From: Pseudomonadota bacterium
GTDB taxonomy: Bacteria; Pseudomonadota; Alphaproteobacteria; Acetobacterales; Acetobacteraceae
Assembly: GCA_021809435.1 (NCBI GenBank)
Contig: JAKBAD010000004.1
Coordinates: 1-64,000 of the forward strand
Direction: 5' to 3'
Length of the DNA: 64,000 bases
Below, one piece after another: positions 1 to 9,656 of this stretch. The translations under genes were made by a program, and so were the position numbers. The notes beneath the pieces were generated by a model. That model saw nothing but the letters and a program-made list of their open reading frames with translations, was not told where the DNA came from and ran no database searches. Every line of letters starts with the position of its first letter. Positions within the stretch are counted from its first letter, which is position 1.

Positions 1-983
1 TCGCGAGCAAGACCTTCACCACCATCGAGACCATGACCAACGCCCACACCGCCCGCGCCCGGCTGGTGGCCAGGCTTGGCGAAGGCGCGGTCGGCGCGCA
101 TTTCGCCGCCGTCTCCACGGCGCTGCCCAAAATCCGTGAATTCGGCATTGACCCAGAGCGCGCCTTTGGGTTTTGGGACTGGGTGGGCGGGCGCTACTCG
201 GTCTGGGGCGCCATTGGCCTGCCGGTGATGATCGCGGTGGGCGCCGAGAATTTCCGCGCCTTCCTGGCCGGCGCCCACGCCATGGATGAGCATTTCCGCA
301 GGGCGCCGCTGGAACAAAACCTGCCCGTGCTGCTGGCGCTGGTGGGCGTGTGGCACCGCAACGCCTGCGGCTACCCCGCCCGCGCCGTGCTGCCCTACGA
401 CCAGCGCCTCGCGCGTTTCCCCGCTTATTTGCAGCAGCTCGACATGGAGAGCAACGGCAAGCGCGTGGCGCTCGATGGCACACCCGTGCAAACCGCCACC
501 GGCCCGCTGGTATTTGGTGAGCCCGGCACAAATGGTCAGCACGCATTTTATCAGCTCATCCACCAGGGCAGCGATATCATCCCTTGCGAATTCCTTATCG
601 CCGCGAAGGGCCATGAGCCCGAACTCGCCCATCACCACCAGCTTCTGATCGCCAACTGCCTGGCCCAGTCACAGGCTTTGCTCATCGGCCGCACGCTCGA
701 GGAGGCGCAGGGCAACCCGCACCGCGTGTTCCCCGGCAACCGCCCCAGCATCACGCTCGCCTATCAGCGCCTCACCCCCCACGCGCTGGGCCGCCTCATC
801 GCGCTCTACGAGCACCGCATCTTCACCGAAGCCGCGCTCTGGAACATCAACGCCTACGACCAATGGGGCGTCGAACTCGGCAAGGAACTCGCCACCAAGC
901 TCCTGCCGGCGCTCAAGGGCGAAGCCGCCGGCCCGCTCGATGGCTCGACCGGCGGGCTGGTGGCGTTTCTGTCCCGGAATTAG
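1..983 (+). CDS. pgi: Glucose-6-phosphate isomerase, C-terminal part (5' end cut by window)
   Basis: Interconverts glucose 6-phosphate and fructose 6-phosphate in the cytosol. The reading frame is open from base 3 and begins inside the family signature [10 protein letters not shown], so the N-terminal portion lies outside the window. About 327 residues remain of a protein that is usually near 500-550. The second signature region ([15 protein letters not shown]) is intact and carries the conserved Gln-His and Lys/His-rich active-site surroundings, and the C-terminal [16 protein letters not shown] block is present. The TAG stop overlaps the stop of the convergent acyl-CoA synthetase gene by four bases. 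The first ATG in the frame (33) is internal and not the real start. Confidence 0.95.
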
Positions 984-2662
984 CGGCTCGCCTCGATCAG
1001 CGCCGCCAGTTCGGCGATCATCTGTTCGCGCATCTTGAATTTCTGGATTTTGCCCGTCACCGTCTTGGGCATTTCGTCCACGAATTTCACATAGCGCGGG
1101 ATTTTATGGTGCGCGATCTGGCCTTGGCAGAAGGCGCGCAGCTCCTCGGTGACCATGGTTTCGCCGTCGCGCAAAATCACCCAGGCGCAAAGCTCCTCGC
1201 CATAGAGTGGGTCGGGTACGCCAAACACCTGAACATCCAGGATTTTGGGATGTTGGTAGAGATATTCCTCGATCTCGCGCGGGTAGAGATTCTCGCCGCC
1301 CCTGATCACCATGTCCTTGATCCGCCCGACGATCTGGCAAAACCCCTCCTCGTCGAGCGTGGCGAGGTCGCCGGTGTGCATCCAGCCATCCTGCACCGAT
1401 TTGGCGGTCTGCTCTTCGTCGCCCCAGTAGCCCAGCATCACCGAATAGCCGCGCGTGCACAGCTCGCCTGGCGTGTTGAGCGGGACAATGGCGCCATCCG
1501 CCCCGATGATCTTGACCTCGAGATGCGCCTGCACGCGCCCCACCGTGGAAACCCGGCGCTCGAGCGAATCATCAAGCCCGGTCTGGAAGCTCACGGGAGA
1601 GGTTTCGGTCATGCCGTAGCAAATGGTCATGTCGCGCGCGTGCATAAGGGCAATGACCTTGCGCATCACCTCGATCGGGCACGGGCTGCCGGCCATGATG
1701 CCGGTGCGCATGGCGCTGAGGTCGAAGCTCGGAAAACGCGGATGGTCGAGCTCGGCGATGAACATGGTGGGCACGCCATAAAGCGCGGTACAGCGCTCAT
1801 CGGCCGCGGTTTGCAGGGTGGTCAGCGGGTCGAATCCCTCGCCCGGCAGCACCATGGCGGCGCCCGAGGTGACGGCCGCCAGATTGCCCATGACCATGCC
1901 GAAACAATGATAGAGCGGCACGGGAATGCAGATGCGGTCGGCCTCGGTGAGCGCCATGCCGCGCCCGACCAGATAGCCGTTATTGAGAATATTGCGGTGG
2001 CTGAGCGTTACTCCCTTGGGCGCGCCGGTGGTGCCGGAGGTGAACTGGATGTTGATGGCATCCCCAGGTTTGAGCGTGGGTTCGATGGCCGCGAGCGCGC
2101 CCCGCCCAGCCGCCCTGCCCTCTTGCTCAAGCGCCGCGAAGGAGAGCGCGCCTGGCAGCAGCGCCTCGCCCATTTGCACCACCAGCCGCAGCGCGGGCAG
2201 GCGGGCGGCTTGCAGCTCGCCGGGCGGGCAGGCGGCCAGCTCAGGCGCCAGCGCCGTGATCATGCCCGGGTAATCGCTGGTTTTGAACGGGGGCGCGATG
2301 ATCAGCGCGCTCATACCCACCTTGTTCAGCGCATATTCAAGCTCAGAGAGCCGGTAGGCCGGATTGACGGTGGTTAAAATCAGCCCCGCCTTGGCGCAGG
2401 CGAATTGGGTGAGCACCCATTCCACCCGGTTGAGCGACCAGATGCCCACCCGGTCGCCGGGTTTGAGCCCGCGTGCCAGCAGGCCGGCGGCCAGCTCCTC
2501 GGCGCGGTGCTTGAGCTCCTGCCAGCTCAGGCGCGCGCCTTGCGCCGGGCACACCAGCGCCTCGCGCGCGGGCCATTGGCGGGCGGCATCGTCGAGCGCC
2601 TGGCCGATGGTTTTTTCCAGCAAGGGCGGCGTGGCGCCACCCTTTACGTAACTTTCCTTCAT
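980..2662 (-). CDS. AMP-dependent acyl-CoA synthetase (FadD35/ACSF2-like)
   Basis: Activates a carboxylic acid with ATP and CoA through an acyl-adenylate. The 560 residues carry the adenylation motif [16 protein letters not shown], the YGMTETSP motif, [11 protein letters not shown], the hinge [16 protein letters not shown] and the C-terminal catalytic lysine region [11 protein letters not shown]. The N-terminus [14 protein letters not shown] is of the ACSF2-type fatty-acyl-CoA synthase group. It is the last gene of the leucine operon, 53 bp after the CitE-like lyase, and a good GGGAGAG Shine-Dalgarno precedes the ATG. The substrate is not evident: a branched or short acid, acetoacetate, or itaconate are candidates given its neighbours. 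The M. tuberculosis gene fadD35 has the same relative position. Confidence 0.85.
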
Positions 2663-2715
2663 CGTCTCTCTCCCGGGTATTTTTTCTGTTCATGGAGGAA
2701 GGATCGGCGCGAGGG

Positions 2716-3585
2716 TCAGGTGGCTTTGACCCTCGCCAATAAACGTTGCGCCTGTTTGAGGTGCGGCAGATCGAGCATCCGCCCCTGATGCGCGACCACC
2801 CCGGCGCCGGGGCTGGCGGCGAACAGCGCCTCGATCTCGCGCGCCGCGGCGATTTCGGGCGCCGAGGGGGTCATGACCTCGTTAATCACCGGCACTTGCG
2901 CGGGGTGAATGGCCATCATGCTCACGAATCCCTCGCGCTTGGCCTGGATGGCCCAGGCGCGCAGCCCGTCGAGGTCGCGGAAATCGGGGTAGACGGTATC
3001 GATGGCGGCGATATTGGCCGCCGCCGCGCCCGCCAGGCAGAGCGAGCGCACCAGGCGGCAGAGATCGGTGAGCGCGCCATCGGGCTGGCGGGCATGGGTG
3101 GCGCCCACGGCGGCGGGCAAATCCTCGGCGCCCCAGGTGAGGCCGATCAGGCGCGGCCCGGCGGCGGCATAGCCGCCGAGCGAAAACACCGAGGCCGGGG
3201 TTTCGGTGGCGATGGCCAGAATGCGCGTGCGCCCGGGCTCAAGCCCAAAGGCGGCTTCGAGCGCCGCGAGATAGGCGCCGAGCGTTTGCACATCGGCCAC
3301 CGAATCAGGCTTGGGCAGCACGATGCCGTCGGGCGCGTGGGGCATGATGGCGGCGAGGTCGGCCAGCGCCAGGCCCGAGGCGAGCGGGTTGATGCGCACC
3401 CACAAAGCCGGGCCGGTGCGCGGCGCGGCCAGGGTTTGCGCGGCCAAGGCCCGCGCGGCGGGCTTGGCGGTGAGCGCGACTGAATCTTCCAGGTCGAGAA
3501 TCAGCGCATCCGCGCCCGCCGCGCCCGCCTTGGCGATTTTGGGCTGAGACTCAGCGGGCACGAACAGCCAGGAGCGCGGGGTCAT
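2716..3585 (-). CDS. HpcH/HpaI (CitE-like) CoA-ester lyase, candidate (R)-HMG-CoA / citramalyl-CoA lyase
   Basis: A 289-residue TIM-barrel lyase of the CitE/malyl-CoA lyase family. Visible features are the N-terminal [13 protein letters not shown] strand, the LDLEDSV acidic motif, substrate-binding Arg in WVRINP, the ATET glutamate and the metal-binding Asp of WGAEDL. The ATG at 3585 overlaps the MaoC stop in ATGA. An upstream in-frame ATG at 3627 would add 14 residues that do not match the family. In leucine degradation the last step normally uses HMG-CoA lyase (LiuE), which is absent here. The homologous position in M. tuberculosis is Rv2498c, reported as an (R)-HMG-CoA and (S)-citramalyl-CoA lyase. 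Assigning that activity here is inference from family and gene order; malyl-CoA-type activity is the alternative. Confidence 0.8.
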
Positions 3586-4034
3586 GCGGGCCTCCGGGCG
3601 AGCAGGGCGGTGCGCTTGCATTGGCACACCAGCTCGCCGCGCTGGTTGAACATGCGGTGGGTGAACACCACCAGCCCGGCATTGGGGCGCGATTTGCTCT
3701 CGCGCTTGTCGGTCACCCTTGTTTCGGCGCGCAGCGTGTCGCCCACGAACACGGGCTTGGGCATCACCACCTCGTCATAGCCCAGATTGGCGATCAGCGT
3801 GCCGAGCGTGGTGTCTCCCACCGAGAGCCCGACCATGAGCGAGAAGGTGAACAGCCCGTTGACCACAATGCGCCCGAACTCGGTCTGGGCCGCGTAATCG
3901 GCATCCAGGTGCAAGGGCTGGGGGTTGTGGGTGAGGGTGGTGATGAGCAGATTATCGGTCTCGGTCACCGTGCGGTGGAGATCATGGCGGATCTCATCGC
4001 CGATGGTGAACTCATCGAAATAGCGTCCGGCCAT
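3582..4034 (-). CDS. MaoC family hydratase, candidate 3-methylglutaconyl/itaconyl-CoA hydratase
   Basis: A single hot-dog domain of 150 residues. The hydratase motif is seen as [15 protein letters not shown] (about residues 34-48), with the typical following region [17 protein letters not shown] and the C-terminal [18 protein letters not shown]. The canonical GDxNPxH motif is altered: HNPQPLH replaces GDxNPLH, a variant that should be compared with Rv2499c-type proteins. It sits between the biotin carboxylase subunit (3 bp away) and the CitE-like lyase (4 bp overlap). No crotonase-type LiuC is present, so it most likely hydrates 3-methylglutaconyl-CoA for the lyase that follows. That function is inferred from position; the fold assignment is solid. 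Confidence 0.82.
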
Positions 4035-4037
4035 GGG

Positions 4038-5909
<1,872 letters not shown>

Positions 5910-5913
5910 GGCG

Positions 5914-7539
5914 TCACATCCGGAACAGGCCAAAGCGGGGCGCGGGCGGTATGGGGGCGTTGAGCGCGGCGGAAATGGCCAGGCCCAGCACGTCGCGGGT
6001 TTGGGCGGGGTCGATGATGCCGTCATCCCACAGGCGCGCGGTGGCGTAATAGGGGCTGCCCTCTTCCTCGTAGCGCGCGCGGATGGGGGCTTTGAAGGCG
6101 GCTTCCTCCTCGGCGCTCCAGCTGCCGCCCTTGGCTTCTATGCCGTCGCGCTTGACCGTCGCCAGCACGCTCGCCGCCTGCTCGCCCCCCATGACGCTGA
6201 TGCGCGAATTGGGCCAGCTGAACAAAAAGCGCGGGCCATAAGCCCGGCCGCACATGCCGTAATTGCCGGCGCCAAAGCTGCCACCCGTGAGCACGGTGAA
6301 TTTGGGCACGCTGGCGGTGGCCACGGCGGTCACCATCTTGGCGCCATCCTTGGCGATGCCGCCGGCCTCATATTTGCCGCCGACCATGAAGCCCGAGATG
6401 TTTTGCAAAAACACCAGCGGCGTGCGGCGCTGGCAGGCCAGCTCGATGAAATGCGCGGCCTTTTGCGCGCTCTCGGAAAACAGCACGCCGTTATTGGCCA
6501 GCACCGCCACCGGATAGCCCCAGATGCGGGCAAAGCCGGTGACGATGGAGGTGCCATATTGCGGCTTGAACTCGTGCAGCGCGCTGTCATCGACAATGCG
6601 CGCGATCACCTCGCGCGCGTCATAAGGCGCGCGGACATCTTGGGGGATGATGCCATAAAGCTCCTCGGGCGCGAAGCGGGGGGCTTTGGGTGCGGCGAGG
6701 TCGAGATCGACGGATTTGCGGGTGTTGAGGCGGGCCACAATGTCGCGCACCAGCGAGAGGGCGTGGTCGTCATCGATGGCGATATGGTCGGCAACGCCCG
6801 ATTTGCGGCCATGCGTATCGGCGCCGCCCAGCTCGGTGGCCGAGATCACCTCGCCTGTCGCGGCCTTGACCAGCGGCGGCCCGGCCAGAAAAATGGCGCC
6901 CTGGCTTTCCTCGCCGCGCCCGCGCACGATGATGGTTTCATCCGACATGGCCGGCACATAGGCGCCGCCCGCGGTCGAGAGCCCCATCACGCAGGCGATC
7001 TGGCTGATGCCCTGGGCGCTCATATTCGCCTGGTTGTAGAAGATCCGCCCGAAATGCTCCTTGTCGGGAAACACTTCGGCCTGGTGGGGCAGATTGGCAC
7101 CGCCTGAATCGACCAGATAGATGCAGGGCAGGCGGTTTTCGAGCGCGATTTCCTGCGCGCGCAGGTGTTTTTTCACGGTGAGCGGAAAATACACCCCGCC
7201 TTTCACGGTGGCATCGTTGGCGATGATCATCACCTCGCGGCCCGAGACGGTGCCGATGCCGCAAATCAGCCCGGCGCCGGGCGCGTCGTCGTTATAAAGC
7301 CCAAACGCGGCGAGCTGGCCGAGTTCGAGAAAGGCGCTGCCGGGGTCGAGCAGGCGCTCGACCCGCGCGCGGGGCAGCAGCTTGCCGCGCGCGGTGTGGC
7401 GCGCGCGGATGGGCTCTGGCCCGCCAAGCCCGGCCCCGGCCACGCGGGCGTGGAGTTCCGCGGCCAGGGCGCGGTTATGGGCGTCGTTGCGGGCAAAGCC
7501 TTCCGAGCCCGTGTCGATGGCGCTGGAGAGATGGGTCAT
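5914..7539 (-). CDS. Methylcrotonyl-CoA carboxylase, carboxyltransferase subunit
   Basis: Beta subunit (LiuB/MccB/AccD1 type), 541 residues, which transfers CO2 from carboxybiotin to the gamma carbon of 3-methylcrotonyl-CoA. Diagnostic segments are the N-terminal [42 protein letters not shown], the oxyanion-hole regions [13 protein letters not shown] and [16 protein letters not shown], and [14 protein letters not shown]. These match the methylcrotonyl branch rather than propionyl-CoA carboxylase. The ATG at 7539 overlaps the isovaleryl-CoA dehydrogenase stop by four bases (ATGA), so translation is probably coupled. Product and substrate fit the operon: isovaleryl-CoA to 3-methylcrotonyl-CoA to 3-methylglutaconyl-CoA. 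Confidence 0.93.
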
Positions 7540-8687
7540 GAGTTCATCAGCTCACGGCCGATGAGGTAGCGGCGGATCTCATTGGTGCCGGCGCCGATAT
7601 CATAGAGCTTGGCGTCCCTCACCAGCCGCTCGATGCCCGTGTCGCGCAGATATCCGGCGCCGCCAAAGGCCTGAATGGCCTCGAGCGCCACCTTCACCGC
7701 GTTCTCGGAGGCCAGCAAAATGGCCCCGGCGGCATCGAAGCGGGTGGTCAGCCCGGCATCGGCCGCGCGCGCCACCGCATAGACATAGGCGCGGGTTGAG
7801 GAGAGCGCGACATACATGTCGGCCAGCTTGCCCTGCATGAGCTGGAAATCGCCGATGCGCTGGCCGAACTGGGTGCGGTCCTTCACGTAGGGCAGCACGG
7901 CGTCCATGGCCGCCTGCATGATGCCCAGCGGCCCGGCGGCCAGCACGGCGCGCTCATAATCGAGCCCGCTCATCAGCACCTTCACCCCACCATTGAGCGG
8001 GCCCATGAGGTTTTCCTCAGGGATTTCGCAATCATCGAAGATCAGCTCGCCCGTGTCCGAGCCGCGCATGCCCATTTTGTCGAGCTTCTGGCCGGTCGAG
8101 AAGCCCTTGAACCCGCGCTCGACGATGAACACCGAAATGCCCTTCGGCCCGGCCTCGGGCGAGGTTTTGGCATACACCACCAGCGTGTCGGCGATGGGGG
8201 CGTTGGTGATCCAGAATTTATTGCCGTTCAGAATATAGCGATCGCCCCGCTTCTCGGCGCGCAGCTTCATCGACACCACATCCGACCCCGCGCCCACCTC
8301 GCTCATGGCCAGCGAGCCGACATGCTCGCCCGAAATGAGCTTGGGCAGATAGCGGCGCTTTTGCTCAGGGCTGCCCCAGCGGCGCAGCTGGTTGATGCAG
8401 AGATTGGAGTGCGCGCCATAAGACAGCCCAACCGAGGCCGAGGCGCGCGAAATTTCCTCGACCGCCAGAACATGCTCGAAATAGCCAAGCCCCAGCCCGC
8501 CCCACTCTTCCTCGACCGTGATGCCATGCAGGCCGAGATCGCCCATCTCGGTCCAAAGCGAGCGGTCGAAATGATTATCGGCGTCGATTTGCCGGGCCAG
8601 GGGCGCGATGCGCGCCTGGGCAAATTTCGCCGTGCTCTCGCGGATGGCCTGGGCGGTTTCACTCAGGCCGAAATCGAGCTGGGACAC
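7536..8687 (-). CDS. Isovaleryl-CoA dehydrogenase
   Basis: FAD enzyme oxidising isovaleryl-CoA to 3-methylcrotonyl-CoA and passing electrons to ETF (etfBA are in this window). It has 383 residues. The acyl-CoA dehydrogenase signatures [15 protein letters not shown] and the C-terminal [21 protein letters not shown] are both present, followed by [17 protein letters not shown]. The glutamate in [10 protein letters not shown] (about residue 245) occupies the unusual catalytic position of isovaleryl-CoA dehydrogenases (E254 in the human enzyme), and this is what separates it from other acyl-CoA dehydrogenases. The start is GTG at 8687 with a strong GGAGGA ribosome site. It is the first gene of the operon and faces the LysR gene across 87 bp. 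Confidence 0.93.
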
Positions 8688-8774
8688 GAGGTTCCTCCGT
8701 TATTTATGCGTTGGCTAAAAGCCTAACGCCAAAAGCCTGACAGAGAAAATTGAAAGTTTTTGCCGGTCTGATAG
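8688..8774. promoter_or_regulatory. Divergent promoter region of the leucine operon and its LysR gene
   Basis: The 87 bp between the GTG of isovaleryl-CoA dehydrogenase and the lysR gene must hold both promoters. An imperfect direct repeat, AAAAGCCTAAC (8717-8727) and AAAAGCCTGAC (8731-8741), has a 14-bp period. GGCT-AAA-AGCC (8713-8723) is a short palindrome. The sequence around 8742-8765 is A/T-rich compared with its surroundings. No clear -35/-10 pair stands out. Confidence 0.5.
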
Positions 8775-8787
8775 ATGATATCTATCA
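8769..8787. promoter_or_regulatory. Perfect inverted repeat TGATAGAT-GAT-ATCTATCA, probable LysR operator
   Basis: Two perfect 8-bp arms separated by 3 bp. The dyad lies directly across the beginning of the divergent lysR gene and contains the first possible ATG (8775), while the second possible ATG starts at its last base (8787). The size and AT-rich dyad form fit a LysR-type recognition site, and its location predicts autorepression. The link to this regulator is inference. Confidence 0.6.
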
Positions 8788-9656
8788 TGGATGGGTATTT
8801 GCTGCGTTATTTTCTGGCCGTGGCCGAGGCAGGCAATTTCTCGCGCGCGGCGGGGCAGGTGAATGTCACCCAGCCTACCCTCTCGGCGGGCATCGCCAAG
8901 CTCGAGGCCCAGCTCGGCCAGCGGCTGTTTGAGCGTGACCGCAAGCGCGTGGCGCTGACCCAGGCGGGCAGCCGGTTCTTGAAGCACGCCCAGCGCATTG
9001 TGGCCGAATATGAGCTGGCGCTGCGCGAGATCTCGGCCACACCCCCGGCGCCGAAACTGCGTGTGGGTGTGCTCTCCACCTTTCCCTCGGCCAGGCTGGA
9101 GGCGCTGGCGCGCGCCCACAGGGCGCGGCCCGGCGCCGAGACGCTGGAGTTTTTGGATGGCAGCGAGCGGGAGCTGAAAACCTGGCTCGAGGATGAGCGG
9201 ATCGAGCTGGCGGTTACCCAGCTGCGCCCCGGCACGCCGCATCTGGCGCAAGAGGGGCTCTATAGCGAGGCCTATGTGCTGGTGATGGCGGCCAGCCACC
9301 GCCTGGCCGGGCGCGAACTGGTGCTGGGCGAGGAGCTGGCCGAGGAGGCCATGATCATCCGCCGCCATTGCGAGGTGCTGGCCGCCACCAGCCAATATTT
9401 CACCCAGCGCGGGGTGCGGCCGGGCTTCGCGCTCAAAACCACCAATGACGACAAGGCCCTGGCCCTGGTGCGCGCCGGGCTGGGCGTGACCGTGATGCCG
9501 GAGAGCTTCAAGGGGCCCGGCATCGCCTTGGCGCGGATGCGCGATTTCGACCATCAGCGTGATATTGGGCTGGTCTATTCAGCCCGCGGCCGTCCGCTCG
9601 CGGTGGGCGGCGGCGTGTTTGTCGAAACCGCCCGGCGGGTGCTGGTGCCCGGCTGA
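8787..9656 (+). CDS. LysR family transcriptional regulator
   Basis: DNA-binding regulator of about 290 residues. The N-terminal winged helix-turn-helix is typical: LLRYFLAVAEAGNFSRAAGQ then VTQPTLSAGIAKLEAQLGQRLFER. A periplasmic-binding-like effector domain follows, with ELKTWLEDERIELAVTQLRPG and the C-terminal ALVRAGLGVTVMPES. ATG codons at 8775 and 8787 are both possible. The later one is preferred because the first lies inside the 8769-8787 dyad; neither has a convincing Shine-Dalgarno, so a leaderless message is possible. Divergent placement beside the isovaleryl-CoA dehydrogenase operon suggests it controls that operon, with an acyl-CoA or leucine-derived effector. The effector is unknown. 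Confidence 0.88.
   Translation: MDGYLLRYFLAVAEAGNFSRAAGQVNVTQPTLSAGIAKLEAQLGQRLFERDRKRVALTQAGSRFLKHAQRIVAEYELALREISATPPAPKLRVGVLSTFPSARLEALARAHRARPGAETLEFLDGSERELKTWLEDERIELAVTQLRPGTPHLAQEGLYSEAYVLVMAASHRLAGRELVLGEELAEEAMIIRRHCEVLAATSQYFTQRGVRPGFALKTTNDDKALALVRAGLGVTVMPESFKGPGIALARMRDFDHQRDIGLVYSARGRPLAVGGGVFVETARRVLVPG

Follow-up and report, generated by a model that had tools for sequence, protein, structure and literature searches.

A leucine operon with MaoC and CitE genes in place of LiuC and HMG-CoA lyase genes in an Acidocella-like genome, and its candidate (R)-HMG-CoA route

The window analyzed here is the whole stretch of 64,000 nucleotides at positions 1 to 64,000 (forward strand) of contig JAKBAD010000004.1, from assembly GCA_021809435.1 in the family Acetobacteraceae. 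Near its start is a tight six-gene operon on the minus strand that encodes isovaleryl-CoA dehydrogenase (IVD), 3-methylcrotonyl-CoA carboxylase (MCC) beta and alpha subunits, a MaoC-family hydratase, a CitE-superfamily lyase, and an acyl-CoA synthetase. Judged from sequence and gene content, we consider it likely that this operon serves leucine catabolism from isovaleryl-CoA to acetyl-CoA and acetoacetate via (R)-3-hydroxy-3-methylglutaryl-CoA (HMG-CoA), with MaoC and CitE as a non-homologous replacement of LiuC and HMG-CoA lyase (HMGL, or LiuE). The genome is Acidocella-like (2.65 Mb, 12 contigs, 100% complete), and no HMGL match and no LiuC were found in it; therefore MaoC and CitE most likely replace LiuC and LiuE. 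From this replacement we infer an (R)-HMG-CoA leucine route like that of Mycobacterium tuberculosis Rv2498c (PMC6689899), which supports, as inference, the (R)-specific leucine branch proposed in a preliminary description of this DNA. In vitro, Rv2498c cleaves both (R)-HMG-CoA and (S)-citramalyl-CoA, and it is required for growth on leucine (PMC6689899).

The operon genes are listed below in the order IVD to synthetase, followed by the control region and the regulator.
7536..8687, minus strand: IVD, with acyl-CoA dehydrogenase (ACAD) domains and a GTG start
5914..7539, minus strand: MCC beta (PF01039), overlapping the IVD gene by 4 bases
4038..5909, minus strand: MCC alpha (biotin) subunit, with biotin carboxylase and biotinyl domains; likely start MIPSLL, 4-base gap after MCC beta
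3582..4034, minus strand: MaoC-family hydratase (PF01575), 3-base gap after MCC alpha; proposed (R)-specific 3-methylglutaconyl-CoA hydratase
2716..3585, minus strand: CitE/RipC-type C-C lyase (PF03328), likely ATG at 3585 with a 4-base overlap with the MaoC stop; proposed (R)-HMG-CoA lyase
980..2662, minus strand: AMP-dependent acyl-CoA synthetase of the PRK12583 subfamily (NF009233, 838.9 bits, cut-off 832), 53-base gap after CitE
8688..8774, no strand: divergent intergenic region of 87 bases, a likely promoter/operator from its position between two divergent starts
8775..9656, plus strand: LysR-family regulator (Pfam HTH_1 and LysR_substrate), divergent from the operon

Coordinates and domain scans bear out the earlier statement that this gene set forms one tightly overlapped operon, and neither a crotonase nor an HMG-CoA lyase is among its genes. 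By comparison with human IVD, the dehydrogenase is presumably an IVD: its LDYER motif holds a Glu, and GAGT occupies the position where ACADs usually carry their glutamate. It is 62-97% identical to the MCC-adjacent dehydrogenases of relatives, and MCC beta shows 67-69% identity to its counterparts in four classical LiuC/HMGL clusters. The closest named relatives are two Acidocella loci (L107 and L108; 86-91% identity in IVD, MCC beta, and MaoC). Both of these, and a locus from an unclassified proteobacterial metagenome-assembled genome, have the same seven genes in identical order.

A conventional LiuC/LiuE pair was looked for elsewhere in the window's own genome with PF00682, PF00378, NF004283, and a crotonase tree and was not found. 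Four proteins matched PF00682: LeuA, two 4-hydroxy-2-oxovalerate aldolases, and a domain in a 1172-aa frame that was read by eye as pyruvate carboxylase. The HMG-CoA lyase model NF004283 had no match in the genome at E <= 1e-50. PF00378 matched nine times, in five stand-alone crotonases and within four longer frames. The best NCBIfam models for the stand-alone proteins were PaaF-like (two), BadI, PaaG, and PaaG-like, and only BadI and PaaG exceeded their cut-offs. Fourteen MCC-adjacent crotonases of other Alphaproteobacteria formed one LiuC clade (support 100/99); all five stand-alone crotonases fell outside it, and a hidden LiuC among them was rejected. The four domains in longer frames lay outside the tree sampling; visual inspection assigned three of these frames to FadB/FadJ-like proteins and the fourth to a 3-hydroxyisobutyryl-CoA hydrolase-like protein.

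By family membership, IVD would convert isovaleryl-CoA to 3-methylcrotonyl-CoA, and MCC would carboxylate this to 3-methylglutaconyl-CoA. MaoC would probably hydrate this product from the opposite side to crotonase-type LiuC and so yield (R)-HMG-CoA, which the CitE/RipC-type lyase, predicted to be Mg-dependent, would split into acetyl-CoA and acetoacetate. The genome encodes three pairs of 3-oxoacid CoA-transferase subunits (PcaIJ/ScoAB families), one of which could activate acetoacetate. Acetoacetate as the CitE product fits because acetoacetate-CoA ligases lie near MaoC-CitE in Azoarcus and Tsukamurella. The synthetase may activate a free branched acid of the leucine pathway. Its homologue downstream of citE in Tsukamurella, at 56% identity, adjoins a separate acetoacetate-CoA ligase. 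A reading of the operon protein as acetoacetyl-CoA synthetase was rejected, as it has 23% identity over 380 residues to the Tsukamurella enzyme of that kind versus 56% to the neighboring AMP-binding protein. The earlier suggestion of an itaconyl- or acetoacetyl-CoA synthetase thus finds no support, given also the three CoA-transferase pairs.

Hydratases of the MaoC type are usually (R)-specific, and the NCBIfam naming of RipB agrees with this. The best NCBIfam model for the window MaoC is RipB/Ich, at 134.5 bits against a cut-off of 340. The motif [TS]HNPQPLH is present in all 24 MCC-linked MaoC sequences aligned (sampled from 72). In the window the motif is THNPQPLH, with Asn where 1q6w carries Asp; beta-methylmalyl-CoA dehydratase 8hgn, whose second half aligns here, likewise has Asn at this site. 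In the MaoC tree, branches were too long for placing the Tsukamurella protein.

The CitE protein has Rv2498c (6aq4) as its best PDB match (128 bits, 4e-36). Further structure matches are 3qll (127 bits), 5vxc (108 bits), and malyl-CoA lyases (102 and 89 bits); we take 3qll to be RipC and 5vxc to be CLYBL. The best NCBIfam models, RipC (172.5 bits, cut-off 375) and citE TIGR01588 (158.4 bits, cut-off 443.4), both fall below their cut-offs. A malyl-CoA lyase reading was rejected because NF041626 scored 40 of 500 bits and the Rv2498c and 3qll structures outscore the malyl-CoA lyases; on these model and structure scores CitE does not sit firmly among that family. A citrate lyase reading was rejected on the TIGR01588 score and on the lack of citD and citF among the eight scanned locus proteins. 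Arg78, Glu142, and Asp169 (counting from the upstream GTG, position 3627) align with Arg64, Glu112, and Asp138 of Rv2498c, of which Glu112 and Asp138 are Mg ligands (PMC6689899). These three Rv2498c residues are kept in all 26 MCC-linked and 32 MaoC-linked CitE sequences aligned.

For the CitE phylogeny, Tsukamurella CitE served as the sole Rv2498c orthologue, assigned by score (299 bits to 6aq4). In a quick maximum likelihood tree of 85 sequences, the MCC-linked CitE proteins and one unlinked protein form a clade of 28 (SH-aLRT 96), nested in a larger proteobacterial clade of 67 (support 99). The Tsukamurella protein is on a long branch outside the proteobacterial clade, and the approximately unbiased (AU) test does not reject grouping with it (p 0.132).

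MaoC and CitE recur in many Alphaproteobacteria, in some next to MCC genes and in others apart from them. Among 289 genomes sampled from the class, MCC beta was strong (E <= 1e-200) in 153, including that of the window. CitE matched 53 genomes, of which two with 39-40% identity (G247, G066) were dropped; 49 of the remaining 51 have MCC beta at E <= 1e-150. Among strong-MCC genomes, CitE is present in 17 of 24 without an HMGL match (E <= 1e-50) and in 29 of 129 with one. HMGL matches occurred in 146 genomes, divided by our own split into 93 strong (E <= 5e-105) and 53 weak; 144 of the 146 exceed the NCBI cut-off, so true HMG-CoA lyases may be numerous among the weak matches as well. The other four members of the window's family in the sample had no MCC beta, CitE, MaoC, or HMGL match at the limits used.

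Gene neighborhoods agree with this distribution. MaoC is alongside MCC genes in 69 of 80 retrieved named loci, from Sphingomonadales, Rhizobium, Acetobacteraceae, Caulobacterales, and others. Within the retrieved stretch, some of which end at contig ends, CitE is found in 51 of these 69. Probing with 14 LiuC and 7 HMGL-like sequences (E <= 1e-10) detected neither enzyme in the 69 loci, and the same probes on 83 other MCC loci found LiuC in 60 and HMGL in 36. Probe matches below E 1e-3 that came from short stretches of over-long probes on MCC genes were not counted. In 30 genomes chosen from the 80, CitE is always encoded, also where it is not adjacent, and a missing lyase in such genomes was rejected. 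At E <= 1e-30, 17 of the 30 have no HMGL-family match and 13 have one (12 at 253-328 bits, one at 372, all above the family cut-off of 246).

LiuC and CitE are anticorrelated across MCC loci. We compared 84 loci, one per genome, of the 153 strong-MCC genomes: 60 taken by MCC score order skipping loci already in the set, 20 partly picked for interest, three (L058, L062, L086) reached via CitE, and the window. With CitE counted anywhere in the genome, LiuC-less loci are 20 with and 6 without CitE, and LiuC-bearing loci are 10 with and 48 without (Fisher p 2e-7, treating related genomes as independent and with LiuC probes partly drawn from the same loci). In the 60 score-ordered loci, the counts are 12 and 5 where LiuC is absent and 8 and 35 where it is present (p 2e-4). 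At the family level, without two short-contig loci, 38 of 45 families are uniform, and the table is 8 and 2 versus 1 and 27 (p 8e-6). CitE is away from the MCC locus in 16 of the 20 LiuC-less CitE genomes. HMGL is strong in three of these 20 (G142, G155, G223), weaker in eight, and not found in nine.

Several observations weigh against an (R)-HMG-CoA role for these proteins. Besides the assumption of independence in the Fisher tests, six MCC loci have neither LiuC nor CitE, two of them on short contigs. HMGL is strong in eight of the ten genomes with both LiuC and CitE, so both systems can coexist. Two genomes of one family (G103 and G263, family f103; loci L252 and L253) combine a LiuC-clade gene, placed between those for MCC beta and alpha, with MaoC-CitE elsewhere and no HMGL match, a mixture that does not fit strict (R)-coupling. 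The CitE protein is 38% identical to the Tsukamurella Rv2498c orthologue, and Met133 in the methyl pocket of Rv2498c is Thr in the window and in 24 of 26 MCC-linked sequences. The association with acetoacetate-CoA ligase is rare (none of the 69 MCC-MaoC loci and two of 55 class-sample CitE loci at >=35% identity). Finally, Rv2499c is not named in the main text of PMC6689899, which therefore leaves the MaoC step without an assigned enzyme too.

The RipABC (ict-ich-ccl) itaconate system likewise partners a MaoC-family hydratase with a CitE-superfamily lyase, and a RipB/RipC-type itaconate role was weighed as an alternative. RipB/Ich and RipC/Ccl are the best curated models for the window pair, and Rv2498c splits (R)-HMG-CoA and (S)-citramalyl-CoA alike (PMC6689899). 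However, both scores (134.5/340 and 172.5/375 bits) are far under the equivalog cut-offs, the window genes are encoded with MCC and IVD, CitE occurs without MCC beta in just two of 51 genomes, and no LiuC or HMGL was found that would complete leucine breakdown otherwise. There is also no CoA transferase among the eight scanned locus proteins (no search for an itaconate CoA transferase was made in the rest of the genome), and we regard a purely itaconate role as improbable. A bifunctional MaoC-CitE pair acting on leucine and itaconate intermediates, as Rv2498c does in M. tuberculosis, is compatible with the favored leucine route and less remote, if still doubtful. The Mg ligands and arginine are common to the window CitE and Rv2498c, and members of this superfamily are said often to accept a broad range of substrates (PMC6689899); against it are the different residue at Met133 and the fact that no itaconate activation or uptake gene was recognized among the eight locus proteins (relatives and the remaining genome were not searched for one). 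Itaconate dissimilation, which had been raised as a possibility for this organism, gains no support from these data, in which CitE tracks MCC and three CoA-transferase pairs are available for acetoacetate.

Leucine breakdown might instead end through an unrecognized lyase or a crotonase encoded outside the operon, in which case MaoC-CitE would have some other branched acyl-CoA as its substrate. Seven of the 153 strong-MCC genomes have neither CitE nor HMGL, so an unknown solution may exist, and in 24 of the 55 class-sample loci MaoC-CitE is accompanied by a different acyl-CoA dehydrogenase. The presence of MaoC beside MCC genes in 69 of the 80 named loci and the LiuC/CitE anticorrelation speak against this explanation, which has little chance of being correct. 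It is similarly unlikely that MaoC acts on the same face as LiuC and CitE cleaves (S)-HMG-CoA, so that the route is not a mirror image. G103 and G263, which retain a LiuC-clade gene with CitE and no HMGL match, would suit that arrangement, but MaoC-type hydratases are generally (R)-specific, as noted above for RipB. PA0883, like Rv2498c, is (R)-HMG-CoA specific (PMC6689899).

The favored leucine route can be compared with known gene systems. Mycobacteria have a related operon, with the order accD1-accA1-fadE19-Rv2499c-citE-bkdABC in the M. smegmatis bkaR regulon (PMC3920632); fadD35 and scoAB are only in species close to M. tuberculosis (PMC3920632). On a Tsukamurella plasmid, the order is TetR, MCC beta, MCC alpha, ACAD, MaoC, CitE, AMP-binding protein, and acetoacetate-CoA ligase, and identities to the window are 61% (MCC beta), 56% (synthetase), 51% (MaoC), 45% (MCC alpha), 38% (CitE), and 35% (ACAD). 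Window and mycobacterial operons share the MCC beta-alpha pair and MaoC immediately before CitE, and the Tsukamurella version also shares the synthetase after CitE. In the window, however, the dehydrogenase is first and the synthetase last, whereas mycobacterial fadE19 follows accA1. The window dehydrogenase is of IVD type and belongs to another subfamily than the Tsukamurella one, which has GEGT at the usual glutamate site. The window has a LysR regulator where mycobacteria have BkaR, a TetR, and no scoAB or bkd genes were found in the operon or in neighbors scanned to 20.3 kb. The plan is thus common to both, but order, regulator, and dehydrogenase are not, and the reported match to the Rv2498c-Rv2505c gene order does not hold.

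Classical liu clusters (IVD-MCC beta-LiuC-MCC alpha-HMGL) share homologous IVD, MCC beta, and MCC alpha with the window. They differ in that LiuC separates the two MCC genes and HMGL comes last; the window lacks both, and MaoC and CitE follow MCC alpha. The window encodes MCC and an acyl-CoA dehydrogenase together with MaoC and a CitE-superfamily lyase, the gene combination expected of an Rv2498c-type (R)-HMG-CoA route.

When the (R)-HMG-CoA leucine route was described in 2019 on evidence of one organism, it was said to have no precedent in nature (PMC6689899), and among the open-access PMC articles listed by our searches no title or abstract opening describes it in Alphaproteobacteria. The route may be a general alternative in this class, assembled independently of mycobacteria (different dehydrogenase, separate CitE clade), with MaoC as (R)-specific 3-methylglutaconyl-CoA hydratase, and may also operate where CitE is unlinked to a LiuC-less MCC locus (16 sample genomes); for this wider proposal the balance is close, tilting slightly to the negative. 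Should the route prove widespread among Alphaproteobacteria of soil and plants (Rhizobium, Sphingomonadales, Acidocella), harmless laboratory strains would be available for its study, and MaoC is a concrete candidate for the hydratase step. If true, a genome with MCC and seemingly without HMG-CoA lyase could still be interpreted as that of a complete leucine degrader. That LiuC and CitE are anticorrelated at MCC loci provides a clear testable prediction.

Regulators and replicons vary among related loci. A number of them have a divergent LysR gene (41-91% identity) upstream of the dehydrogenase/carboxylase genes. Two Rhizobium records (L289, a Rhizobium beringeri plasmid, and L125, pRL10) carry the leucine operon on large plasmids, one typed as conjugative, with an AraC regulator in the place of LysR. 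At the 3' end of the window operon, a PGI gene (33-983, plus strand) is convergent on it; the window begins at contig base 1, so nothing is visible beyond the PGI side.

MaoC-CitE also occurs in other gene settings. A second cassette, with an acyl-CoA dehydrogenase at least 50% identical to that of Azoarcus (L290:8944-10110), is present in 24 of 55 class-sample CitE loci (L051, L054, L088, L118, L278, L290, and others). In Azoarcus, acetoacetate-CoA ligase comes next, and an Acidocella relative of L107 has the second cassette (L278) plus the leucine operon. One could speculate that the cassette degrades 3-methylglutaryl-CoA or methylsuccinyl-CoA. In L055, L095, L097, L098, and L104, MaoC-CitE adjoins a carboxylase pair with no more than 40-55% identity to MCC, and all of these except L098 also have a dehydrogenase 39-46% identical to IVD; perhaps these loci encode another acyl-CoA carboxylase pathway.

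The seven genomes with strong MCC beta and neither CitE nor HMGL (E <= 1e-50) are G042, G060, G076, G105, G191, G193, and G241, and five of their seven loci (L254-L258, L262, L327) keep LiuC. In these, either HMGL is too diverged or was lost from the assembly, or there is a third lyase. In the window's own genome, BadI (2-ketocyclohexanecarboxyl-CoA hydrolase, above cut-off) and the two 4-hydroxy-2-oxovalerate aldolases (L007, L002, and L003, on own contigs C3 and C4) suggest cyclohexanecarboxylate and aromatic breakdown.

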